NCBI RefSeq assembly: GCF_000813985.1
Contig: NZ_JWLJ01000001.1
Coordinates: forward strand, 918,453 to 982,452
Direction: 5' to 3'
Length of the DNA: 64,000 nt
Source: Ruegeria sp. ANG-R
Lineage (GTDB): Bacteria > Pseudomonadota > Alphaproteobacteria > Rhodobacterales > Rhodobacteraceae
Shown here in pieces: positions 29,121-39,795 of this stretch. Position 1 is the first letter of the stretch, and each line of letters begins with the position of its first letter. A model generated the notes under the pieces. It was not told where the DNA came from and searched no databases. It saw nothing but the letters and a program-made list of their open reading frames with translations. A program made the translations under genes and the position numbers.

Positions 29121-30371
29121 TTACAAAACCTGTAACCCGATTCCGGCCAGAACCATGACAGCTAATGTGGTCGCTAAACCGGATTTCATACGGAAAATCA
29201 ACAGGCCTGCAACAAGGGTAAGGCTCAAAGCCCTGATATCCAGAGTCATCAGGTCGGGCAGGGGCAAGGACACAGGGCCCCAGCGCCATCCCGGAAGGCT
29301 ACCGAACAGGACATTCAGGCCGAACCACACGGACAGGTTGAGAATCACCCCGACCACAGCCGCAGTGATTCCATGCATTGCGGCGCCCAGACGCGGACGA
29401 GCGGCGATTCTGTCCAAATGGGGGGCGGCAAGAAAAATCCACAGGAAACAGGGCACGAACGTCGCCCATAGCGCAACCAGCCCTGCCGCCAGCGCAAGCG
29501 AGGGACCTCCGGCAATCTGTCCGCTGAGCATGGCAACAAACTGAGTCACCAGAATAAGGGGCCCGGGTGTGGTTTCGGCAAGCCCCAGCGCATCAATCAT
29601 CTGGTGCGTGCTGATCCATTGATAGGTATCGACGACGGTTTGTGTCATATAGGCCAGCACCGCGTATGCACCACCGAAGGTGACGACGGCCAGACGGGCG
29701 AAGAACCACCCCAGATCGCTTAGCAGTTCCTGACCCGTGACATGCAAAAGAACCAGCGGCCCCAGCCAAAGGACCAACCAGAAGGCCGCGGTTCGGATAG
29801 GCTTGCTGAGAGTTGGGCTTGGTTGGACGGCTGTCGGCGTGAGGTTTTTCGACGTTGCATATCCCCAGAGTGCGGCGCAGAGGATGATCAGCGGGAAGGG
29901 CAGGTTGAATACAAAGATGCCCAAAAAGGCGAGGCCGGCGATCACCCGATGTTCGACATCCGTCAACGCTTTCCGCGACAGGTTCCGCAGAGCTTGCAGG
30001 ACGATGATGATAACGGTTGCCTTGATGCCTAGAAATCCCGCCTGAACCAGAGGCAGTTCGCCGTACGCGGCATAAAGCGCGACAAGAAGGGCGATCACCA
30101 GCGCGCCCGGCAGAACAAACAGGGCTCCGGCAATCAGCCCGCCGGTCACGCCGCGCAACCTCCAACCCGCGTAGGTGGCGAGTTGCATGGCCTCGGGACC
30201 TGGCAGCAACATGCACAATGAAAGCGCACGCAGATAGGTTTGCTCGTCCAGCCAGGGGCGCTTTTCGACCAGTTCCTGATGCATCAGTGAAATCTGTGCG
30301 GCGGGCCCGCCGAATGACAGCAGGCCAATGCGCCCAAAGACCCTGATAAGCTCGCGGAAAGAAGGCGTCAT
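29121..30371 (-). CDS. chrA: Chromate transporter ChrA
   Basis: This 416-residue inner-membrane efflux protein of the CHR family is of the long form with two homologous halves. The first half has FGRIGLLSFGGPAAQI near residue 10 and LPGPEAMQLA near residue 55. The second has RLAVVTFGGAYAVLAYM near residue 225 and TTPGPLILVTQFV near residue 265, showing the duplication directly. It probably exports chromate. The start overlaps the end of the chrB-like gene by 4 bases, so they form one operon. Confidence 0.9.
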   Translation of the reverse strand: MTPSFRELIRVFGRIGLLSFGGPAAQISLMHQELVEKRPWLDEQTYLRALSLCMLLPGPEAMQLATYAGWRLRGVTGGLIAGALFVLPGALVIALLVALYAAYGELPLVQAGFLGIKATVIIIVLQALRNLSRKALTDVEHRVIAGLAFLGIFVFNLPFPLIILCAALWGYATSKNLTPTAVQPSPTLSKPIRTAAFWLVLWLGPLVLLHVTGQELLSDLGWFFARLAVVTFGGAYAVLAYMTQTVVDTYQWISTHQMIDALGLAETTPGPLILVTQFVAMLSGQIAGGPSLALAAGLVALWATFVPCFLWIFLAAPHLDRIAARPRLGAAMHGITAAVVGVILNLSVWFGLNVLFGSLPGWRWGPVSLPLPDLMTLDIRALSLTLVAGLLIFRMKSGLATTLAVMVLAGIGLQVL

Positions 30372-31183
30372 TGACCGTGACCTGCCGGCCAGTCATGCGT
30401 TTCACCCGCCCCATCCCGTGCCCAGCGATAGAGCGCGTCGTAAAGGTGCAGACCGGCCTTCAATTGTTGCTGATCATCCCGATACTGGCGTGACAACCCA
30501 ACCGACAGGGCCAGCAACCCAGCGGCTTCCGGTGACAGGTCATGTCGATTTGTATCCGCCGCACGAACGATGGTGGCCACGCGATCCAGCGGCTCGGAAT
30601 GCAGGTTGAATTCGTCCAGCATCGTATCAAAGGTGCATCTGTCGCCGCGATGGCTCCAGTCAGTGCCTTCGACATCAAAAGCTGTGGCACCAAAGTGCCC
30701 GGCAACACCCGGAACTTCGGTTGGTGCGACAAAAAGAAACTGTGCGCGGGCGTCGACAAACCTGCGGATCAGCCAGGGGCACGCGATACGGTCGATCTTG
30801 GGGCGGTGCCGGGTAACCCAGAGCGTACCGCCGTCGATGATCGCGGGCAGGGCCGAAACCGGAACGCTTGGCGCACCCGGCGTGGCGCGCCAAGCGAGAG
30901 TTCCGCCTTCCAGATACTCGGCCCGCGCTCCACCTGTCTGCAGCCAGGAAACGACGCCCTGACTCAGTTTCTTGCCCTTCTGGCAAATCACCACGCATGG
31001 CCGATCAGCGATCAGTTTTCGGATGCCGTCGATATCGTCATAGGAATGACGAACCGCAGCCGGGATGAGACAGGGATCATCGTTGAAATCGGCGTCCGTG
31101 CGCACGTCGACAAGCACGGGCGCCTGAGGCGTACCAATCAGGCGTAAGAGTTGCCGGGTCGTAATAGCATTGGGGGCAGCCAT
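30368..31183 (-). CDS. Rhodanese-ChrB fusion protein
   Basis: The 271-residue protein has an N-terminal rhodanese-like domain (VLVDVRTDADF near residue 24; active loop CQKGKKLSQG with cysteine near residue 68). A C-terminal ChrB-type domain follows, starting near GGTLWVTRHRPKIDRIACPWLIRRF. ChrB C-terminal domains accompany ChrA and are linked to chromate sensing or resistance. Here the usual ChrB N-terminal part is replaced by a sulfurtransferase-like domain. It is translationally coupled to chrA. The rhodanese domain may handle thiols or reduce chromate, but that is inference. Confidence 0.82.
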   Translation of the reverse strand: MAAPNAITTRQLLRLIGTPQAPVLVDVRTDADFNDDPCLIPAAVRHSYDDIDGIRKLIADRPCVVICQKGKKLSQGVVSWLQTGGARAEYLEGGTLAWRATPGAPSVPVSALPAIIDGGTLWVTRHRPKIDRIACPWLIRRFVDARAQFLFVAPTEVPGVAGHFGATAFDVEGTDWSHRGDRCTFDTMLDEFNLHSEPLDRVATIVRAADTNRHDLSPEAAGLLALSVGLSRQYRDDQQQLKAGLHLYDALYRWARDGAGETHDWPAGHGQ

Positions 31184-31309
31184 AGCATGTTTCCTTGTTG
31201 CTTTGGATACATGCGAACTTGGGCTGCCGCCTCACGGGGTGTTCGCAAGCCTACCCCTTGTTCCTCTGCTAGCGTGCAAACGCGGCATGGGTCAAGCTTG
31301 CGGTGACGA

Positions 31310-31744
31310 TTATCCGGCCCAGTCCAACCTCTGGCCGGTCATGCAAACGGGCAGGGTGTCCTGCGGAAACTGCCCCAGCTGTTCGAAGAATGAAATGAAG
31401 TCGAACTGATTATAGGCTTCTACCATCTTGTCACCCTTGAACCGGGCCATGACCTGTCCGGTCACCTCCAGCGGGGCGCCGTTGTCCGCTCGAAACGTGC
31501 GGACGTGAAGAATACCGGACACCCAATCCCCATTCTCGATGATCTTGGGTAACTCGACTGTGATGTCGCCCAGCACATGACGGAATGCCATGACCAGATC
31601 ACGAAAGTCCTCAGCGCCGACCTGCATTTCGGGAATCAACCCTTCGGCCATGGTATCCGGGGCGAAAAACTGATCGATCGCATCGGTATTGCCCTTTTCC
31701 CAGACTTCCGAATACCACGCCCTTAATCTGTCAGAGTTCGTCAT
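31310..31744 (-). CDS. SnoaL-like (NTF2-fold) protein
   Basis: This 144-residue protein has the NTF2-like cyclase fold pattern (RAWYSEVWEKGNTDAIDQFFAPD, residues 7-29). FRDLVMAFRHVLGDITVEL follows near residue 47, and a final strand region near YNQFDFISFFEQLG. Such proteins include polyketide cyclases, isomerases and many of unknown function. The gene is monocistronic with a strong ribosome site (AGGAGGGT). It lies between the chromate genes and ssrA, with no sign of what it acts on. Confidence 0.7.
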   Translation of the reverse strand: MTNSDRLRAWYSEVWEKGNTDAIDQFFAPDTMAEGLIPEMQVGAEDFRDLVMAFRHVLGDITVELPKIIENGDWVSGILHVRTFRADNGAPLEVTGQVMARFKGDKMVEAYNQFDFISFFEQLGQFPQDTLPVCMTGQRLDWAG

Positions 31745-31834
31745 CTCAACCCTCCTGTCGCATAACCGGGAAAATGGTCGAAAGAAGTGAATAAACCCTA
31801 AATCTCAGGTAAGTTATGGGTTTAACGCAGACAT

Positions 31835-32153
31835 GAAACGGGAAATGCAGGTTTCTGTTGCCAGGTACCTGCGAACCCCGCCTTACGCGGCTAGGCGCAA
31901 GGGCTTAAGTTTCGGTCTTGCTACTGCTTACGCAGCAACTGCAACCGGAGCACGATTGTCGTTTGCAATTGTACTATTTTCGCCGATAACGGTGGCAGAC
32001 AGCCGAGACAAAGCTAACCCCTTTAGACGTTCGTCGATCCTGTTTCGGCCCCATGATCCTCAAACGAAGGATGGTTGGTGGAGCCGCCGGGTACCGCCCC
32101 CGGGTCCGATCCGCTTATTACGAGCGCGTTTATGTCCATAGTCCCGAAGGACA
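31835..32153 (-). ncRNA. ssrA: Transfer-messenger RNA, circularly permuted two-piece form
   Basis: Reading the minus strand, the acceptor piece comes first and ends CGGCTCC-ACCA at 32086-32076. After a 23-base intervening segment the coding piece begins GGGGCCG at 32052, which pairs with the acceptor strand to form the 7-bp stem. The tag reading frame at 31966-31928 encodes ANDNRAPVAVAA and a TAA stop, ending in the expected AVAA degron. A promoter-like sequence sits just upstream. The permuted order is the known alphaproteobacterial arrangement. Outer ends are approximate. It rescues stalled ribosomes together with SmpB; the tagged products go to ClpXP with SspB. Confidence 0.93.
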
Positions 32154-32158
32154 TCCCT

Positions 32159-32187
32159 TATATAGGTGAGGATCGGGGGCGATGCAA
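32159..32187 (-). promoter_or_regulatory. Promoter of ssrA
   Basis: On the minus strand TTGCAT (-35) and TATATA (-10) are separated by exactly 17 bases. Transcription would begin at about 32152, at the start of the tmRNA precursor. Confidence 0.7.
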
Positions 32188-32227
32188 ACTCAGATTGAAA
32201 ATCACCGCCTGTAATAAAACCAGTGCC

Positions 32228-32590
32228 TTACGGTGCCTTGTTGATGTTAACAAGGATCAACCACAGGGCCAGAGCCAGCTCGATTCCTCCAAAAGTCAGT
32301 GCCTTGAGCAGCGGAGGACTGTCCAGCGCAACAGAAATGAGCCGCCCCAGCGCCGTCCCGGCATAAACAACGCCCAGCATCGCATAGGCCATCGGAGTGT
32401 TCAGCCAAAGCACCGCTGCACCAGTCACCACAAACAGTCCACCCACCGAGGCGCGCATCTCACTGAGGCCCATGGTGCTCTTGGTCGGGGCCAGATCCAA
32501 CGCGTTGGCCGTAAACGCGGGGGCCAGAAAACCGAAGAGACCGAAGCCAATCGTAAGCAAAGCGGCTATCACGTTGAGGGCTGTTGTCAT
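32228..32590 (-). CDS. Small four-helix membrane protein (DUF4345-like)
   Basis: This 120-residue protein is almost entirely hydrophobic, with about four membrane helices. Motifs such as GLSEMRASVGGLFVVTGA and AGTALGRLISVALD resemble the DUF4345 family, which has no known function. A good ribosome site (AAAGGGA) precedes the ATG. It is the last gene of the leftward group gntR, mtoX, membrane protein, DUF4345. The 62-bp gap to the upstream gene permits but does not prove co-transcription. Confidence 0.6.
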   Translation of the reverse strand: MTTALNVIAALLTIGFGLFGFLAPAFTANALDLAPTKSTMGLSEMRASVGGLFVVTGAAVLWLNTPMAYAMLGVVYAGTALGRLISVALDSPPLLKALTFGGIELALALWLILVNINKAP

Positions 32591-32652
32591 CTATCCCGGT
32601 CCCTTTTGATCTGCATGTTCAAACTAGCCCATTGTCATGCAATGAAAAGCAC

Positions 32653-33360
32653 CTAAAGCGCTGACCAAAGGCCCAAAACGCCGACCAAAATCAGGCTCAG
32701 GGCCCAGACAAGTTCAAGATTAAACCAGCTGCGAGACAGAAATTGCAGTCCTAGCCAGCGGTAGACCGCGAATGCAAGGATGCCCCCTCCGAGGATCATT
32801 GCGGCACTATGAAGTGCGGCGACGGCCAGGACCAGAATACCGTTGGTCGCCATGATTTCCGACACCGCCCGGTGCCCGGCGTCCAGTTCATCCAGCCCGC
32901 ACAGGCCCAGATAGATCGGGACCAGCATCAACGCAGCGCCATGGGCCAATGCCACGAGGAATGACCACAGAGCCAGTCTACCCGGAGGTATCCGCGAAAG
33001 CACTCGAGGGTGGCGACGCGTTATCGCGATGTAAATACCCATCACGATCACGATCAGGGCCGCACCGATACGTATCTCGCGCTGATACTCGATCAGAGCT
33101 GCCATCAGGGCGAAAGGCAGCAAGACACCAAGCATTGCCACGAAATGTCCGCTTGCCAGCGCTGCCAGAGCGCGCCAGAGGGCGGATTGGCGCTGTTCCA
33201 TAAGCGCAGACGACACGGCAAGCGGCCAGCCCATGCCCGGGTTCAGGCCATGGTATGCACCGCTTAGAAGAACGGCCAGCCAGAGGCCGGCCGTCGATGT
33301 CAGCAAGGCGTCCAACTCAGACCGATGGATAGCAGAAGCTGTCTGTCGAACAGTCGCCAC
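32653..33360 (-). CDS. Predicted polytopic membrane protein downstream of mtoX
   Basis: This protein of about 235 residues has six or so membrane segments. The early motif SGAYHGLNPGMGWPLAVS and a later histidine in LVALAHGAALMLVP resemble the histidine-bearing helices of nickel/cobalt or HupE/UreJ-like metal transporters, but I am not certain of the family. The ATG at 33360 lies inside mtoX (44-base overlap). A TTG at 33315, just after the mtoX stop, is an alternative start giving 220 residues. Tight coupling to mtoX suggests a shared role, perhaps metal supply to the oxidase. Confidence 0.6.
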   Translation of the reverse strand: MATVRQTASAIHRSELDALLTSTAGLWLAVLLSGAYHGLNPGMGWPLAVSSALMEQRQSALWRALAALASGHFVAMLGVLLPFALMAALIEYQREIRIGAALIVIVMGIYIAITRRHPRVLSRIPPGRLALWSFLVALAHGAALMLVPIYLGLCGLDELDAGHRAVSEIMATNGILVLAVAALHSAAMILGGGILAFAVYRWLGLQFLSRSWFNLELVWALSLILVGVLGLWSAL

Positions 33361-34717
33361 CTTCCAGGCGGATCTGATGGGCGCGGTACCCGTCAGGGAA
33401 ATCTACCCAGAATTTCGGGTCCAGCGTCAGACCTCCGGTCTCTCCGACATCCGCTTTGACCATCGCCGCGCCGCGTTCTCCGGGATAGAACTGATCATCC
33501 CACGTGGAATAGAGAGAATTGGTCCAGTAGACCCGTTTCCCATCCCGGCTTATCTCGACCATCTGAGGGCCGTAACCAAAAGCCTGCCCATTGGGGTGTT
33601 TGGTTTTCTTTACGATCCCTCCGATCTCGACCTTGCCGGCAAGGGTCGGGTTCATCGGATCAGAGACATCGTATTGATGCATTTCACCCGTGCCCCAGCA
33701 GGCCACATAGAGGTATTTGTCATCAAGGCTGAGGTCGATATCCGTGACCAGCGGCGGAACGGCGGAAAACCCCTTCAGCAAGTCGGGCAGGTCGTCCGGG
33801 TCAGCCGGCTGCGGATCAATCGTGATGGTTTTCTTCGCCTCGAAAGTGCCGTCATCGTTGCGCCACCAGGTAAAGATCGCACCCTGCAGATTGGTTGTGT
33901 CGACCACAACGCCACAGAAGCCATATTGCTTGACAGGATCATGCGCAGGCCGGATTTCCAGCGCCATCTGGTGATTTTCGCCCAGGTCAATGGTCTGGAT
34001 ATTGGTCCGGCTGCGAAGGTTCCAGAAATGGATTCTGTGCCCATACTTGTTGGACAGCAGATCCTCGGCCACGATCCCGTTTTCGAATTGCGGGGGCAGG
34101 CCCCATTCCGAGCTGACCATGTAATCGCGCGGCAGGTTCCACCAGAAATCATAGTGTTTGTCCTGCACACCGCGTTCGATCTCGTATCGACCGATGATCT
34201 CGAAGCTCTCGCAATCCATGATGAAGATGCCGGGAGGGCCATCCGTCCCGTCCTCACCTGCGCCGCCCAGGGTGCTGACGTATATTCCTTCGGGGCCGCA
34301 ATGAATGGTATGCGGACGGGAATATCCTGTCTTGGCAAAGACTTCTTCGGGTTCAATGATCTTGTGAATCTTGGCTTCCAGCGGGTTTTTGACATCGATG
34401 ATGTAGATCCGGCTGGACCGGATACCCGGAACGATCAGGTAGCGTCGCTCCAGAAAAGCATGACCGCTAAGAGGCGACAGCGACGAGGAACAAGCGTTCC
34501 AGCCAAAGTGATGAAACTCATCGCCTTTTTCCGGCATGATCACCTGATGAACGATCTTGCCGTAGTCTTCCGATGTCGGATCGACATTCACGACCGCCAA
34601 TCCATCGGGTTGCGAAAAATCGGGGCTGAGCATCAACGTGAAGGCCAGCGTCTCGGCTGGTCCTTCCATCGCCAGTCTGGCCGAAGGGTAAAAGGTTGGG
34701 TCCGGTCTTTGGTTCAT
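33317..34717 (-). CDS. mtoX: Methanethiol oxidase, SBP56 (selenium-binding protein) family
   Basis: The 466-residue protein matches the SBP56 family, whose characterised bacterial members oxidise methanethiol to formaldehyde, hydrogen sulfide and hydrogen peroxide. The conserved FHHFGWNACSS block contains the family cysteine (residue 76), like human SELENBP1. SRPHTIHCGPEGIYVS, WNLPRDYMVSSEWG and the C-terminal YRAHQIRLEGGDCSTD are also typical. No signal peptide is visible, so this is predicted cytoplasmic, unlike the periplasmic Hyphomicrobium enzyme. The start at ATG 34717 follows GGGAGG. It lies beside a GntR gene and near dmdA, whose pathway produces methanethiol. The family also contains members of uncertain function. 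Confidence 0.85.
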   Translation of the reverse strand: MNQRPDPTFYPSARLAMEGPAETLAFTLMLSPDFSQPDGLAVVNVDPTSEDYGKIVHQVIMPEKGDEFHHFGWNACSSSLSPLSGHAFLERRYLIVPGIRSSRIYIIDVKNPLEAKIHKIIEPEEVFAKTGYSRPHTIHCGPEGIYVSTLGGAGEDGTDGPPGIFIMDCESFEIIGRYEIERGVQDKHYDFWWNLPRDYMVSSEWGLPPQFENGIVAEDLLSNKYGHRIHFWNLRSRTNIQTIDLGENHQMALEIRPAHDPVKQYGFCGVVVDTTNLQGAIFTWWRNDDGTFEAKKTITIDPQPADPDDLPDLLKGFSAVPPLVTDIDLSLDDKYLYVACWGTGEMHQYDVSDPMNPTLAGKVEIGGIVKKTKHPNGQAFGYGPQMVEISRDGKRVYWTNSLYSTWDDQFYPGERGAAMVKADVGETGGLTLDPKFWVDFPDGYRAHQIRLEGGDCSTDSFCYPSV

Positions 34718-34825
34718 AACGTCCTCCCGTAAGTCATTGATCTTCAATTCATAGTGAGAGTTCCGGTCTTGTCGCCGGATGTCATGCTGCCTGCTCGGGG
34801 TCCTTCTTGATTCCAGTCTTCTTTC

Positions 34826-35557
34826 TTATGCGGGTTTGCGTCGCTGCTCAGCGACATCTTGCGCCAGTTTGCGGGTATAGAGTTCCAGTTTGACCAGCGC
34901 CGCGTCCACGCTCGATGCATCGCCTGCCTCGAGCGCGTCGGCGATATCGGTGTGAAGGGCGATGATCTCTTCACGAGAGCGCGCCGTAAAGGTGATCATG
35001 TTCATCAGCGGCTGCATCGCTTCGACCGCACCTGCAAGTTGGTAGGAAAGCACAGGGTTGCCTGCGCCGTCGACCAGCGCACGGTGAAAGGCCACATCCG
35101 AGGCGCAGAATGCTTCGTCGGTCAAGCCGGGCTGTGCCTGCCGAAAGATCTCGGCCCGCATCGTGGCCAGCTGATCTGGGGTGCGACGCTGCGCCGAGAG
35201 CGATGCACAGGCGCGTTCCAGCGCATAGCGGGCCTCGCAGGCTGTATCAAAGCTGACCGCGTTCATCGACAGCAGCAGGGTTGAGGTCGTAATCTGCTGG
35301 GAATAGGCGTCCTCAAAGTTCAACCGGTTCACAAAAGCCCCGCCGGACGCGCCGCGTTGTGTTCGGATCAGGGATTGCGCCGCAAGCCGTTTCAGCGCTT
35401 CGCGCACCGTCGGGCGCGAGACCTGAAACTGATCGGCAAGCTCCGCTTCCGAAGGCAGCCTCTCATCCACGATCAACCGGCCCGATACAATCGCATCCCG
35501 GATCGCCTGGGCAATTTGGGCTGACAGATCAGCGGGGCTTCGCGGGTCGATTTTCAT
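34826..35557 (-). CDS. GntR-family (FCD subfamily) transcriptional regulator
   Basis: The 243-residue regulator has an N-terminal winged helix (DAIVSGRLIVDERLPSEAEL, then FQVSRPTVREALKRLAAQ) and a C-terminal all-helical FCD ligand domain with metal-binding type histidines (DVAFHRALVDGAGN; ALHTDIADAL). ATG 35557 (MKIDPRSPADL) is used; upstream in-frame sequence runs through the operator region. The gene lies between mtoX (108 bp downstream, same strand) and the divergent DUF2182-dmdA operon. It is therefore well placed to control both. Two palindromes in the intergenic gap are likely its operators. The ligand may be a DMSP catabolite such as acrylate or acryloyl-CoA; that is inference. Confidence 0.88.
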   Translation of the reverse strand: MKIDPRSPADLSAQIAQAIRDAIVSGRLIVDERLPSEAELADQFQVSRPTVREALKRLAAQSLIRTQRGASGGAFVNRLNFEDAYSQQITTSTLLLSMNAVSFDTACEARYALERACASLSAQRRTPDQLATMRAEIFRQAQPGLTDEAFCASDVAFHRALVDGAGNPVLSYQLAGAVEAMQPLMNMITFTARSREEIIALHTDIADALEAGDASSVDAALVKLELYTRKLAQDVAEQRRKPA

Positions 35558-35587
35558 GGTCTTTGTCCGCTTTCGTGAATTTTTATT

Positions 35588-35611
35588 TGTCTGACATTTA
35601 AAAGTCTGACA
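35588..35611. promoter_or_regulatory. Tandem operator-like palindromes
   Basis: TGTCTGACA (35588-35596) and AGTCTGACA (35603-35611) share the palindrome GTCTGAC and the longer direct repeat GTCTGACATTT. Centres are 15 bases apart. GTnnnAC-type palindromes are typical of FCD-subfamily GntR operators, and the site lies between the divergent regulator gene and the dmdA operon. Confidence 0.6.
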
Positions 35612-35646
35612 TTTGAAAAGCAAGAGAGTTGAGTCGGGGGGGGCAA

Positions 35647-36438
35647 GTGAGTCGCTCGATTTTCCGCAGTGCGCTTTGGTTGGGCTTCTACATCGCGATC
35701 CTCTGGTCGTGGTGGATGATGGTCTCGATGAGCCGCGATATGGATCTGGACTGGATCGGGCGCCCTGGCCCGATGGGGCAGGCCATGGCGGCCATGGACC
35801 CGCGCATGGACATGTACATGCCAATGGCCGAGTTCGGCCCCTTGTTCTGGATGTGGGCGATCATGATGGCTGCGATGATGTTACCGACCTTGGTGCCGAC
35901 GTTGCGCAGCTACGATGATCTGATCCGCAGCGCCAATGGCACACGGGCAGGGTGGCTGGGCGTTCTGTCCGGTTACTTTATCGTATGGGTCGGTTTCGCG
36001 GCGCTCATCACTGGCCTGCAACTGGCTCTGTTGTTTGGCGGCGCGGTTGATATGCTGGGAATTGCCAAGTCTCCCTATCTGGCGGCTGGCCTGTTGATCG
36101 CGGTTGGCGCGTTTCAGTTTTCTCGCGCGAAAGAGGTCTGCCACGGCGTTTGCCACGCGCCGATGACCTATTTCCTGGGCCATTGGAGAACAGGGTTTTC
36201 CGGCGGCCTGCGCATGGGGCTGGGTCTCGGTGCGTTTTGCGTCGGATGTTGCTGGGGCTTCATGGCACTGGGCTTTGTTGGTGGCGTCATGAGCCTGTTG
36301 TGGATGGGTCTCGCGACCCTGTTCATGGTTTTGGAGAAGCTGCCCCAGATCGGGCACGCGATCACCCGTCCCATGGGATTCGTTTTGATAGCGGGTGGTT
36401 TAGCTTTGCTCGCACATCACATTGCTTACGGAGGATAA
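35647..36438 (+). CDS. DUF2182 predicted metal-binding integral membrane protein
   Basis: This is a 263-residue polytopic membrane protein with about five helices. Conserved cysteine/histidine segments CHGVCHAP (near residue 165) and FCVGCCWGF (near residue 197), plus many methionines in the first periplasmic loop (MAAMDPRMDMYMPM), suggest metal contact, probably copper. The start GTG 35647 is chosen because it follows a purine-rich run; an upstream TTG is possible. It is the first gene of an operon with DUF1326, DinB, dmdA and acuI, four bases before the next start. DUF2182 and DUF1326 genes commonly occur together. The metal role is unproven. Confidence 0.8.
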   Translation: MSRSIFRSALWLGFYIAILWSWWMMVSMSRDMDLDWIGRPGPMGQAMAAMDPRMDMYMPMAEFGPLFWMWAIMMAAMMLPTLVPTLRSYDDLIRSANGTRAGWLGVLSGYFIVWVGFAALITGLQLALLFGGAVDMLGIAKSPYLAAGLLIAVGAFQFSRAKEVCHGVCHAPMTYFLGHWRTGFSGGLRMGLGLGAFCVGCCWGFMALGFVGGVMSLLWMGLATLFMVLEKLPQIGHAITRPMGFVLIAGGLALLAHHIAYGG

Positions 36439-36442
36439 GTGG

Positions 36443-37147
36443 ATGGCTAAAAACAGAAAACCGGATGCGGATAAGCTGCCGGTCAGTCAGAGGATTGACA
36501 GCCGGATGCCGAACCCCAAACGGCGCGAGATGAGCCCGACGGACTGGGCGGTCAAGGGTGAGTTGATCCTGAACTGTTCATGCGACGTATTTTGTCCTTG
36601 CGTGGTTTCTTTGGGCGCGCACCCTCCGACCGAAGGGCATTGCCATGCCTGGATGGGGATCATCATCGATGAGGGTCACTATGAGGGTGAAGACCTGTCC
36701 GGTCTGAACGTCGGCCTGCTGGTCGATATCCCCGGTCGTATGGGCGAGGGGCAATGGAAAGTCGCGGCGTATGTGGACGAACGTGCCAGCGGCAAGGCCT
36801 ATAACGGTCTGCTGCAGATTTTCAGCGGCCAGGCCGGGGGCACAACCGGGCTGTTCACCATGTTGGTCAGCGAAATCATCGGGGCCGAGCGTGCGCCGGT
36901 TCAGATCGAAAGAGATGGCACCAAGCGCCGTATCATGATCGGGCGTAAGATTCAGGGTGAGATCGAGATGCTGGCGGGTAAGGACCCTGAGCATCCGGTG
37001 ATGGTATCGAATTCGAAATACTGGATGGGCCCGGATGTCATCGTCGCCAGAGGCACAAAGTCCAGGGTTCGCGATTATGGCCGCGTCTGGGACTTTGGCG
37101 GCAAGTCCGCCGAGATATGTCCCATCAACTGGCACGGTCCAAAGTAA
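36443..37147 (+). CDS. DUF1326 domain protein
   Basis: This 234-residue protein with no membrane segment has the DUF1326 hallmark NCSCDVFCPC near residue 45, a dense cysteine motif suited to binding a soft metal. A GHCHAW block lies near residue 66. The N-terminus carries about 35 extra charged residues (NRKPDADKLPVSQRIDS) ahead of the usual domain. The start ATG 36443 follows GGAGG by 8 bases. It begins 4 bases after DUF2182 and its stop overlaps the DinB start (TAATG). Function unknown; likely a partner of DUF2182. Confidence 0.8.
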   Translation: MAKNRKPDADKLPVSQRIDSRMPNPKRREMSPTDWAVKGELILNCSCDVFCPCVVSLGAHPPTEGHCHAWMGIIIDEGHYEGEDLSGLNVGLLVDIPGRMGEGQWKVAAYVDERASGKAYNGLLQIFSGQAGGTTGLFTMLVSEIIGAERAPVQIERDGTKRRIMIGRKIQGEIEMLAGKDPEHPVMVSNSKYWMGPDVIVARGTKSRVRDYGRVWDFGGKSAEICPINWHGPK

Positions 37148-37653
37148 TGATTACTGGTGCCTATGTCCGTGAAATGGCGCGCTACAACTGTTGGCAAAAC
37201 AATCAGTTGAATGGGTTTCTTCAGGCGCTGCCAGATCAAGAGCTCACACGGGATCGCGGTGCCTTCTTCGGATCGATCATGGGGACGGCCAATCATCTGC
37301 TTTGGGGAGACTGGATCTGGATTTCCCGGTTTGACAAAGGACCGGGGCCGGGCGGCGGCATCCCCGACAGTGTCTCGGTCTGCGCAGGGATGTCGGACTG
37401 GCTGCCTTTGCGCGATACGATAGATGCCCGGATCACCAGATGGGCCGAAACGCTTGGCGACCAAGAACTCAACGGCCCGTTCACCTGGTATTCGGCGGCC
37501 AAAGAGGCCGATGTGACGAAACCTTATGCGCAATGTGTGATCCACATGTTCAACCATCAGACGCATCATCGTGGACAATTGCACCAAATGCTGACCGAAG
37601 CCGGATCGCAGGCCCCCGTCAGTGATCTTGTCTTTCTGCCAGAGGATTTCTGA
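37147..37653 (+). CDS. DinB-like (DUF664) putative metalloprotein
   Basis: This 168-residue four-helix protein is of the DinB/YfiT fold. Three histidines typical of the metal site are seen: one in GTANHLLWGDW near residue 47 and two in FNHQTHHRGQ near residue 140. Family members include thiol-dependent S-transferases using mycothiol or bacillithiol and enzymes of unknown role. The start overlaps the DUF1326 stop by one base and the stop is one base before dmdA. The position inside a methyl-sulfur operon makes a thiol-transfer role attractive but unproven. Confidence 0.8.
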   Translation: MITGAYVREMARYNCWQNNQLNGFLQALPDQELTRDRGAFFGSIMGTANHLLWGDWIWISRFDKGPGPGGGIPDSVSVCAGMSDWLPLRDTIDARITRWAETLGDQELNGPFTWYSAAKEADVTKPYAQCVIHMFNHQTHHRGQLHQMLTEAGSQAPVSDLVFLPEDF

Positions 37654-37654
37654 C

Positions 37655-38749
37655 ATGGCAGTCATCACGCCAAACCGACGCGTACGCAAAACGCCTTTCA
37701 CCCCGGGGGTCGAGGCCGAAGGGGTCAAAGCCTATACGGTCTACAACCACATGCTGTTGCCGACTGTCTTTGAAAGCGTGGAGGCGGATGCGGCTCATCT
37801 GAAAGAACATGTACAGGTCTGGGATGTCTCGTGTGAGAGGCAGGTTCAGATCAAAGGGCCCGATGCTCTGCGGCTTATGAAGATGCTCAGTCCGCGGGAT
37901 ATGGACCGGATGCAGGCCGATCAGTGCTACTATGTTCCGATCGTGGATCATAATGGCGGTATGCTGAACGACCCGGTCGCGATCAAACTGGCGGATGATC
38001 ATTATTGGTTATCGGTCGCTGACGGCGATTTGTGGCAATTCGCCTTGGGCGTCGTGATCGCTCTGGGGTTGGATGTAGATGTATCCGAGCCGGACGTCTC
38101 GCCATTGGCGGTGCAGGGACCCAAAGCCGACGCACTGATGTCGCGTGTTTTCGGCGACGATGTCAGAGAAATAAAATTCTTCCGGTACAAACGGTTGGCG
38201 TTCGAAGATACCTCTTTCATCATCGCCCGGTCAGGCTGGTCGAAACAGGGCGGGTTCGAGATTTATGTCGAAGGTGCGGATTATGGAATGCCGCTATGGG
38301 ACGCCCTGTTTGCAAACGGGCGAGACCTGAATGTTCGGGCCGGCTGCCCCAATAGCATCGAACGGGTTGAGAGCGGTTTGCTGAGCTTTGGCTCGGATAT
38401 GAGGCGCGAGAATACGCCCTATGAATGCGGGCTGGCGCGTTTTTGTAACTCTCGGCTCGACTACATCGGCAAGGCCGCGTTGGCGGATCAGGCGGAAAAT
38501 GGTCCGTCCCGACAAATCCGACCGCTTGTTATCGAAGGAGAGATTGGCCCGTGCACGGGGTCCTGGCCGTTGTTGGCCGAAGGCAAGCAGGTCGGGCGAG
38601 TGGCCTCGGCCGTGTATTCGCCCGAATTCGGCGTGAACGTCGCCATCGGGATGGTGAACCGATCGCATTGGGCACCGGGAACGCGGATCGAGCTGATGAC
38701 CGAACACGGAATGCGATGGGCTGTGGTGCAGGAGAAATTTTGGCGCTGA
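37655..38749 (+). CDS. dmdA: DMSP demethylase
   Basis: DmdA transfers a methyl group from dimethylsulfoniopropionate to tetrahydrofolate, yielding methylmercaptopropionate, the entry to the demethylation pathway. The 364-residue GcvT-fold protein contains VYNHMLLPTVFES, HVQVWDVSCERQVQIKGPDA, QCYYVP and ARSGWSKQGGFEIYVEG. These match my recollection of Ruegeria pomeroyi DmdA much better than glycine-cleavage T-protein. ATG 37655 is one base after the DinB stop. acuI follows 50 bp downstream, the known roseobacter arrangement. A glycine-betaine-type demethylase is the main alternative. Confidence 0.88.
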   Translation: MAVITPNRRVRKTPFTPGVEAEGVKAYTVYNHMLLPTVFESVEADAAHLKEHVQVWDVSCERQVQIKGPDALRLMKMLSPRDMDRMQADQCYYVPIVDHNGGMLNDPVAIKLADDHYWLSVADGDLWQFALGVVIALGLDVDVSEPDVSPLAVQGPKADALMSRVFGDDVREIKFFRYKRLAFEDTSFIIARSGWSKQGGFEIYVEGADYGMPLWDALFANGRDLNVRAGCPNSIERVESGLLSFGSDMRRENTPYECGLARFCNSRLDYIGKAALADQAENGPSRQIRPLVIEGEIGPCTGSWPLLAEGKQVGRVASAVYSPEFGVNVAIGMVNRSHWAPGTRIELMTEHGMRWAVVQEKFWR

Positions 38750-38799
38750 GCCCTGAGTTCAGGAACATAGCCCTTTGAGGCGGCAAAAGGAGTAAGTTT

Positions 38800-39795
38800 A
38801 TGTTTAACGCACTTGTTGTTGAAAAAGATGAAGGAAGTGGCCTCGCCAGCGCTGCGGTGAAGCAAATATCGCAGGATGCGTTGCCGGACGGAGAAGTGAC
38901 GGTTGCTGTTGAGTATTCGACCGTGAACTACAAGGACGGGCTGTGCATGTCTCCAAAAGGCGGCGGTCTGGTCCGCAGTTACCCTCATATCCCGGGCGTC
39001 GACTATGCGGGCACGATCGAGCAATCATCGGACGACCGCTACCAGCCCGGGGACAAGGTGGTTTTGACCGGCTGGCGCGTGGGTGAGGCACATTGGGGCG
39101 GATATTCCCAGAAGGCCAATGCGCGTGCTGATTGGCTGGTGCCCTTGCCGGATGGGTTGGACACGCGGCAGGCAATGGCTGTCGGGACCGCCGGGTTCAC
39201 CGCCATGCTGGCCGTTATGGCGCTGGAGGATCACGGCTTGAAGCCGGGGCATGGTCCGGTACTGGTGACCGGCGCAGCCGGCGGGGTTGGCTCGGTTGCG
39301 ACCGCCATTCTGGCTCATCTGGGCTATGAAGTTGCGGCAGTAACAGGACGTCCGGAAACCGCTGATTACCTTAAATCTCTGGGAGCAGACACAATTGTTC
39401 CGCGTGACGAGTTGAACGAAACGACCAAGCGACCACTGGAAAGCGAAACCTGGGCGGGTTGTGTCGATGCCGTGGGAGGAGCCATGCTCGCCCGTGTGCT
39501 GGGTCAGATGAAATATGGGGCATCCGTGGCTGCGGTTGGTCTGGCCGGAGGTGCAGCCTTGCCTGCAACGGTGATCCCATTCCTGCTGCGCGGAGTGAAC
39601 CTGTTGGGCATCGACAGTGTCATGCAACCTTATGAAAACCGGGTCCGCGCCTGGCAGCGTGTCGCAACCGATCTGCCCATGGACAAGCTCGAGGCGATGG
39701 TTCACCCCGCAACCCTGTCGGACCTGCCGCAACTTGGCGCGGATATCCTGCAGGGCCAGGTCAAGGGCCGTGTCGTGGTCGATGTGAACGCCTGA
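38800..39795 (+). CDS. acuI: Acryloyl-CoA reductase (NADPH)
   Basis: AcuI reduces toxic acryloyl-CoA to propionyl-CoA and protects cells that cleave DMSP to acrylate. The 331-residue medium-chain reductase has VNYKDGLCM near residue 46, PHIPGVDYAGTI near residue 65 and GTAGFTAMLAVMALEDHGL near residue 128. VTGAAGGVGSVA marks the NADPH fold near residue 156. No zinc-binding cysteines are evident, as expected for this subgroup. The ribosome site AAAGGAG precedes the ATG. Its position directly after dmdA is well known in roseobacters. Confidence 0.93.
   Translation: MFNALVVEKDEGSGLASAAVKQISQDALPDGEVTVAVEYSTVNYKDGLCMSPKGGGLVRSYPHIPGVDYAGTIEQSSDDRYQPGDKVVLTGWRVGEAHWGGYSQKANARADWLVPLPDGLDTRQAMAVGTAGFTAMLAVMALEDHGLKPGHGPVLVTGAAGGVGSVATAILAHLGYEVAAVTGRPETADYLKSLGADTIVPRDELNETTKRPLESETWAGCVDAVGGAMLARVLGQMKYGASVAAVGLAGGAALPATVIPFLLRGVNLLGIDSVMQPYENRVRAWQRVATDLPMDKLEAMVHPATLSDLPQLGADILQGQVKGRVVVDVNA

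Follow-up and report, generated by a model that had tools for sequence, protein, structure and literature searches.

A SELENBP1-like candidate methanethiol oxidase gene beside the dmdA-acuI operon of Ruegeria sp. ANG-R and a putative GntR operator linking the two

Whether bacteria demethylate or cleave dimethylsulfoniopropionate (DMSP) sets the share of its sulfur that leaves the sea as gas. We analyzed a 64-kb stretch of the genome of Ruegeria sp. ANG-R (contig NZ_JWLJ01000001.1; hereafter the window, whose positions are used throughout), in which the genes for DMSP demethylase (dmdA) and acryloyl-CoA reductase (acuI) lie close to a gntR regulator gene and a gene of the SBP56, or selenium-binding protein, family that encodes a candidate methanethiol oxidase. 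The linkage of dmdA with acuI and the induction of the pair are already known, as are methanethiol oxidases of two clusters, the induction of mtoX by DMSP and the suggestion that Ruegeria has further oxidases of the SBP family. In Ruegeria pomeroyi DSS-3, acuI directly follows dmdA and is co-regulated with it, and dmdA-acuI is reported to be upregulated approximately 10–14-fold with DMSP or acrylate but not with 5 mM methylmercaptopropionate (MMPA) (PMC3338564). An mtoX-SCO1-mauG operon is described for Hyphomicrobium VS and for R. pomeroyi (SPOA0268-0272), and the mtoX-type oxidase is reported to be induced during DMSP use (PMC5739008). Most cluster-1 oxidases are characterized by three cysteine motifs, and two enzymes of this cluster, RdMTO and RlMTO, one of them from R. 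lacuscaerulensis, were reported to consume methanethiol (Cao 2024, PMC10936201). Two SBP-family homologues of R. lacuscaerulensis and R. pomeroyi have been suggested as further methanethiol oxidases (PMC7157515), and human SELENBP1 is reported to prefer methanethiol and ethanethiol and to have six residues whose mutation strongly suppresses activity (PMC10362175).

We consider it probable that the Ruegeria sp. ANG-R locus is a common dmdA operon that has captured an SBP56 gene and its membrane partner under a divergent GntR, with both arms and dmdB co-induced in a feed-forward arrangement. The genes, the operators, their conservation and the residue set of the candidate oxidase, as described below, rest on sequence.

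Arrangement of the dmdA locus and its operator

The SBP56, GntR, dmdA and acuI genes were all identified in the window from open reading frames and family profile searches, which bears out what the original prediction had read at 33317–39795. The left arm runs leftward on the minus strand from position 35557 and consists of gntR (34826–35557), whose product matches both the GntR winged-helix and the FCD domains (PF00392 and PF07729), the SBP56 gene (33317–34717; PF05694, 580 bits) and a membrane protein gene (32653–33360) that overlaps the end of SBP56 when its GTG start is taken. The right arm, on the plus strand from 35647, carries a DUF2182/PpoB2 gene (35647–36438; PF09948, described in Pfam as a copper chaperone, 202.5 bits), a DUF1326 gene (36443–37147; PF07040, 181.5 bits), a DinB-family gene (37117–37653; PF05163, 82.9 bits), dmdA (37655–38749) and acuI (38800–39795). 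DmdA scores 599.5 bits with NF009133 against a cut-off of 410, with 3tfh as its best solved relative. The acuI product scores 447.3 bits with TIGR02823, above the cut-off, and 427.9 bits with the AcuI equivalog NF051456, narrowly below the cut-off of 440. The layout of two arms around one GntR gene is as had been claimed, except that gntR itself is co-directional with SBP56 and so belongs to the left arm; the three genes between gntR and dmdA, encoding the DUF2182/PpoB2, DUF1326 and DinB proteins, had gone without mention.

The operator-like repeats that had been noted near the GntR gene are real. A GTCNGAC palindrome is present in two copies at 35587–35613 (TTGTCTGACATTTAAAAGTCTGACATT); the first copy is TGTCNGACA exactly, the second differs from it at one base, and the pair sits before gntR and between the arms, in a control region common to both. 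The sequence TGTCNGACA was found in 68 of 78 gntR gaps, compared with a mean of 0.22 in shuffles. A 16-base operator matrix was trained on gntR gaps alone, using 36 distinct sites (the upstream regions of 79 loci were listed, one of them without sequence), and with this matrix no further site above 14 bits was observed elsewhere in the 64 kb of the window.

For comparison we used 79 dmdA loci from 79 of the 168 DmdA-containing genomes described below, taken mainly from the genomes whose DmdA ranks highest in similarity to that of the window, with four picked for a nearby SBP56. Within 6.5 kb of dmdA, a gntR relative (>35% identity) is found at 65 of these loci, DUF2182 at 66, DUF1326 at 66, dinB at 42 and acuI at 70. 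Together, gntR, DUF2182, DUF1326 and acuI occur at 55 of the 79, a proportion that does not describe a random sample because the loci were picked by similarity and by nearness to SBP56. The order gntR, then divergently DUF2182-DUF1326-(dinB)-dmdA-acuI, is a common arrangement, and the dmdA side of the window is ordinary. An open-access literature search found no paper containing both dmdA and DUF1326.

Two side observations concern this region. Within Ruegeria and its closest relatives, dmdA appears to have been exchanged at an unchanged position: DmdA at the same locus is 87–88% identical to that of the window in L004 and L006 and 61–64% identical in L002, L003, L005, L007–L009 and L014, while across the same nine loci AcuI is 87–92% identical in all and DUF1326 is 94–97% identical except in L014 (64%). 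Beyond the left arm (29121–32590), the window carries chrA and genes for a rhodanese-domain protein (closest to the ChrE family but below its cut-off), a SnoaL protein and a DUF4345 protein. These recur beside gntR at many dmdA loci; counted within 6.5 kb, they are present at 17, 14, 15 and 23 of the 79 loci, respectively.

Linkage of SBP56 to dmdA and operator sites elsewhere

We place the window protein in a group of 141 distinct SBP56 proteins with 77–97% identity to it, here termed SBP56-II or group II. We compared 80 SBP56-II loci, the best 80 of 592 relatives found; being the best-scoring relatives, they lean to near relatives of the window, and the closest, including those of Ruegeria sp. 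R13_0 and R. arenilitoris, are 96–97% identical to the window protein. A dmdA gene lies within the locus in 12 of these 80, and the linkage is thus not confined to one strain. SBP56 stands behind gntR in Ruegeria (L002, L004–L009, L014), in two metagenome-assembled genomes (L003, L026) and in Tateyamaria (L065), and behind acuI in Pacificoceanicola (L012). Among 394 genomes, in which DmdA was called at E < 1e-100 and SBP56-II at approximately 77% identity or more with partial genes included, SBP56-II is present in 86, DmdA in 168 and both in 69 (odds ratio 8.6, p = 1e-15). The two genes lie within 10 kb of each other in 5 of the 69 genomes that have both, compared with 0.35 expected if genomes of 4.0 Mb are assumed (p = 3e-5). 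The five were identified by eye, four of them being confirmed in locus sequence and the fifth being the window's own; since DmdA places below approximately 461 bits were not listed, the count may fall short by a few linked cases. In this set SBP56 is found behind gntR (G043, G240), behind acuI (G345) or behind dmdA (G066), so that linked SBP56 occupies three positions. A quick SBP56 tree (FastTree, 149 proteins remaining from 174 rows once duplicates and sequences shorter than 400 residues had been removed) requires at least 8 changes for the linked state and 17 for the operator label. In G003 (L274), where there is no DmdA, SBP56 and the membrane gene lie approximately 1.5 kb behind a gntR that faces genes for acyl-CoA dehydrogenase, dinB and acuI. 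SBP56 and its membrane gene have joined the dmdA locus in several lineages, and the linkage is sporadic yet above chance. Conservation of the oxidase gene near dmdA, which the original prediction had put forward for checking across genomes, is not general and is rejected as such by the 5 of 69.

The strongest new evidence for joint control, and it is evidence from outside this locus, is provided by operator sites before SBP56 genes that are not linked to dmdA. Among the 68 loci without a nearby dmdA, the 170 bp preceding SBP56 contain a matrix site in 20, 18 and 18 when the threshold is set at 14, 16 and 18 bits, compared with 1, 0 and 0 sites in the remaining 1,338,392 bases of those loci, and in 15 of the 68 the exact core is positioned approximately 76–139 bp before SBP56. 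Roseobacter cerasinus (L036) is one example of an SBP56 gene with an operator in front. In the 394-genome set, a site above 18 bits stands in front of SBP56 in 10 of 60 unlinked genomes with DmdA versus 0 of 17 genomes without DmdA. Taking linkage and operator together, 32 of 80 and 15 of 82 SBP56 loci in the two sets have one or the other. The joint regulation that had been suggested for the two arms therefore finds support in sequence beyond the window, but for a minority of SBP56 genes.

Operator sites are also found at other genes. The Ruegeria sp. ANG-R genome has three matches to WTTGTCNGACAWTT, a 14-base form, one of which is at the promoter of the dmdA locus. A second is positioned approximately 0.12 kb ahead of a dmdB-like gene. 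The best family for this gene is 3-(methylthio)propionyl-CoA ligase (691 bits against a cut-off of 822, with the matched stretch truncated at the end of the locus). The third (C1:27280, L241) is between imelysin-like and ZrgA-like genes. A strict 15-base pattern has matches in 36 of 120 genomes, and its reverse in one; 17 of the matching places are away from dmdA. At five of these, gntR faces acuI, or an acyl-CoA dehydrogenase gene with acuI beyond it (L244, L266, L282, L261/L275, L267/L274). The pattern also occurs at dmdB (L249), before a group I SBP56 (L276), near an acuI with no recognized gntR (L283) and, in two genera (G036, G049), before a gene for an acyl-CoA ligase 31–32% identical to DmdB (L277, L279), which is possibly another target of GntR. 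No GntR operator above 16 bits was found at two confirmed MtoX-type loci (L289, L290) or at one candidate (L291).

Several observations weigh against the interpretation proposed above. Of the 68 loci that have no dmdA close by, 48 also have no operator before SBP56, and neither linkage nor operator is seen in 48 of 80 and 67 of 82 loci or in 50 of 65 DmdA-containing genomes. The contrast in operators between genomes with and without DmdA is weak (one-sided p = 0.07); for dmdA linkage or operator combined, p is 0.02, rising to 0.10 once G003 is counted as linked. The 20 operator loci include several close relatives whose promoters are nearly identical (e.g., L034, L035 and L042) and so do not represent 20 separate events. 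SBP56-II is present without DmdA in 17 of 86 genomes, and SBP56 of group I or II without DmdA in 26. Seven of the 17 strict-pattern places are at genes for which no tie to the pathway was found (L246, L247, L248, L251, L264, L280, L281), and the Cao 2024 and SELENBP1 studies differ on reaction products. Finally, a matrix scan found no operator site in the gap between gntR and SBP56 (34718–34825), and transcription of SBP56 would thus have to either continue from the gntR promoter or begin at a different one. Read-through is possible since no terminator-like site is present on the minus strand of this gap (such sites number 19 in the scan, compared with 7.5 in shuffles); the promoter scan gave 1 sigma-70-like site compared with 3.6 in shuffles.

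The empty gap, together with linkage in just 5 of the 69 genomes that have both genes, is what would be expected if the SBP56 pair stood beside gntR by chance without being controlled by it. Such a neighborhood would have to produce linkage above chance (p = 3e-5) at three positions and an operator before 20 of 68 unlinked SBP56 genes when a single site occurs in the other 1.34 Mb, and we consider it very unlikely.

The SBP56 protein and its membrane partner

The oxidase gene had been labeled mtoX, a name that is ruled out in its strict sense. The window protein scores 108.8 bits with the MtoX equivalog NF052453, for which the cut-off is 650, and no SCO1 or mauG neighbor was found. The MtoX-type proteins of other Rhodobacteraceae that served as positive controls reach 750.9 bits (L290) and 754.7 bits (L289), and the L290 gene precedes a MauG-like gene; among the ten proteins scanned from 31310–39795 of the window, the SCO1/SenC and MauG families are not represented. 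Inspection by eye showed no apparent signal peptide in the N-terminus, MNQRPDPTFYPS. The protein is 41–43% identical to six group I proteins and 24–30% identical to MtoX-type proteins, with approximately 30% for the two controls. Its genome has one SBP56 match only, and a gene of MtoX type would have shown, given that such genes score 127–150 bits with the same family elsewhere.

The window protein is instead a SELENBP1-like SBP56 with the cluster-1 signature. The cysteine motifs GWNACS, HTV/IHC and GGDCS/T are all present (as GWNACS, HTIHC and GGDCST), contributing C76, C140 and C456. Counterparts of the copper pocket, H69, H70, H136, H139, D190 and E254 (the HH and HXXH motifs, an Asp and a Glu), are the same residues in all 141 group II proteins; they were equated with the residues of PMC10362175 by motif and position, without alignment to the human protein. 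Based on the cluster-1 motifs, the two assayed cluster-1 enzymes and these conserved counterparts of SELENBP1 residues, the window SBP56 likely oxidizes methanethiol. The evidence on substrate is at the level of the family, group II is distinct from the MtoX type at 24–30% identity, and SBP56-II is found without DmdA in the 17 genomes noted above, all of which would be compatible with a real regulon in which SBP56 acts on another thiol or on a persulfide from DMSP or acrylate catabolism. Such a substrate is unlikely given that two cluster-1 proteins, one of them from Ruegeria, are reported to have consumed methanethiol (PMC10936201) and that human SELENBP1 is reported to be best on methanethiol and ethanethiol (PMC10362175).

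The membrane gene lies directly downstream of SBP56 in 78 of the 80 SBP56-II loci, and in the remaining two (L067, L076) the contig ends within approximately 200 bases. Its product matches no family and has five invariant histidines (37, 72, 117, 140 and 184) among 41 aligned members. The AlphaFold model has a mean predicted local distance difference test score of 75.5 and no PDB match with E < 0.001, and a Pfam search at E up to 1 gave no family in more than 5 of the 41 members and none for the window protein. A role of DUF2182/PpoB2 as the copper chaperone of SBP56 is not supported, as it does not clearly track the presence of SBP56: DUF2182 is found at dmdA in 35 of 39 genomes with SBP56-II versus 31 of 40 without (p = 0.22).

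SBP56 genes were also observed in clusters with a DmdA-like paralogue and an acyl-CoA ligase at L278 (5182–13715) and L286, both with group I SBP56, and at L161, with group II. The L278 paralogue is 39% identical to the window DmdA and scores 378.7 bits, below the 410 cut-off, and the L278 cluster also contains a protein with a metallo-beta-lactamase fold, for which the best-scoring family is a sulfur transferase/dioxygenase. These clusters perhaps represent a parallel demethylation route that also yields a thiol.

Proposed regulation and comparison with known systems

The GntR ligand is probably acrylate or acryloyl-CoA and not methanethiol, to which the original prediction had taken the sensor to be tuned. 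Acrylate or acryloyl-CoA is favored by the response in R. pomeroyi and by the presence of gntR and operator at acuI without dmdA: in genomes where dmdA was not found, a close relative of the window gntR with its operator faces acuI (L244, L266, L282). The same regulon, if its ligand were methanethiol or an MMPA-branch intermediate, would agree with the report that the true R. pomeroyi mtoX responds most to methanethiol (PMC5739008) and with the operator before the dmdB-like gene. This alternative is improbable in light of the acuI loci just described and of the R. pomeroyi dmdA-acuI fusions, which are reported to respond to DMSP and acrylate and not to MMPA (PMC3338564).

With acrylate or acryloyl-CoA as the most likely ligand, our model predicts that a SELENBP1-like copper methanethiol oxidase and its membrane partner were captured behind the gntR of a roseobacter dmdA operon. 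GntR would occupy the operator pair that separates the arms, most likely repressing both, and would be freed from it by the DMSP breakdown product. Release would switch on both arms together, along with dmdB elsewhere in the genome, and the oxidase would be produced in step with the demethylase, ahead of methanethiol. In some relatives this tie to the regulon may be kept through an operator before an unlinked SBP56. As a whole, the interpretation that the original prediction placed on the locus is partly supported. A broader proposal, which we hold tentatively and judge to have somewhat less than an even chance, is that the dmdA-side GntR is a pathway-wide DMSP regulator in Rhodobacteraceae that reads acrylate or acryloyl-CoA and controls dmdA, acuI, dmdB and the cluster-1 oxidase. 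The oxidase would then have been wired in repeatedly, either by moving beside gntR, dmdA or acuI or by gaining an operator in place, and a product of the cleavage branch would induce removal of the toxic product that the demethylation branch yields.

Among described systems, the dmdA-acuI operon of R. pomeroyi DSS-3 resembles the window in the order of the two genes, to which the window adds gntR, the operators, DUF2182, DUF1326, DinB and SBP56; the main text of PMC3338564 contains neither GntR nor selenium. The mtoX-SCO1-mauG operon shares with the window the SBP56 family and the copper histidines, but its enzyme is predicted to be periplasmic, its partners are SCO1 and MauG, an IclR-type gene lies upstream and, as described, it is on a megaplasmid (PMC5739008), whereas the window SBP56, at 24–30% identity, has a GntR operator and SCO1 and MauG partners were not found. 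RdMTO and RlMTO carry the same three cysteine motifs as the window protein, and the main text of PMC10936201 makes no mention of dmdA, a gene cluster or an operon. The homologues of PMC7157515 are likewise Ruegeria SBP56 proteins with low similarity to MtoX, presented in the available text of that paper with no gene neighborhood or regulator. Human SELENBP1 and Caenorhabditis elegans SEMO-1 share the six counterparts of copper-oxidation residues and, as described, are animal proteins without a gene cluster (PMC10362175). By term counts, GntR is absent from the main text of PMC5739008, PMC7157515, PMC9769926 and PMC3338564, and an open-access literature search, mostly of titles, returned no regulator or operator of dmdA-acuI and no methanethiol oxidase in that regulon. 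Relative to the literature searched, a candidate operator and regulator for dmdA-acuI and a candidate methanethiol oxidase tied to that regulon are new. If the operator holds, Ruegeria cultures would allow direct tests of the regulator and its targets, and a roseobacter that lacks the MtoX type of gene gains a candidate oxidase with a regulatory link to DMSP demethylation.

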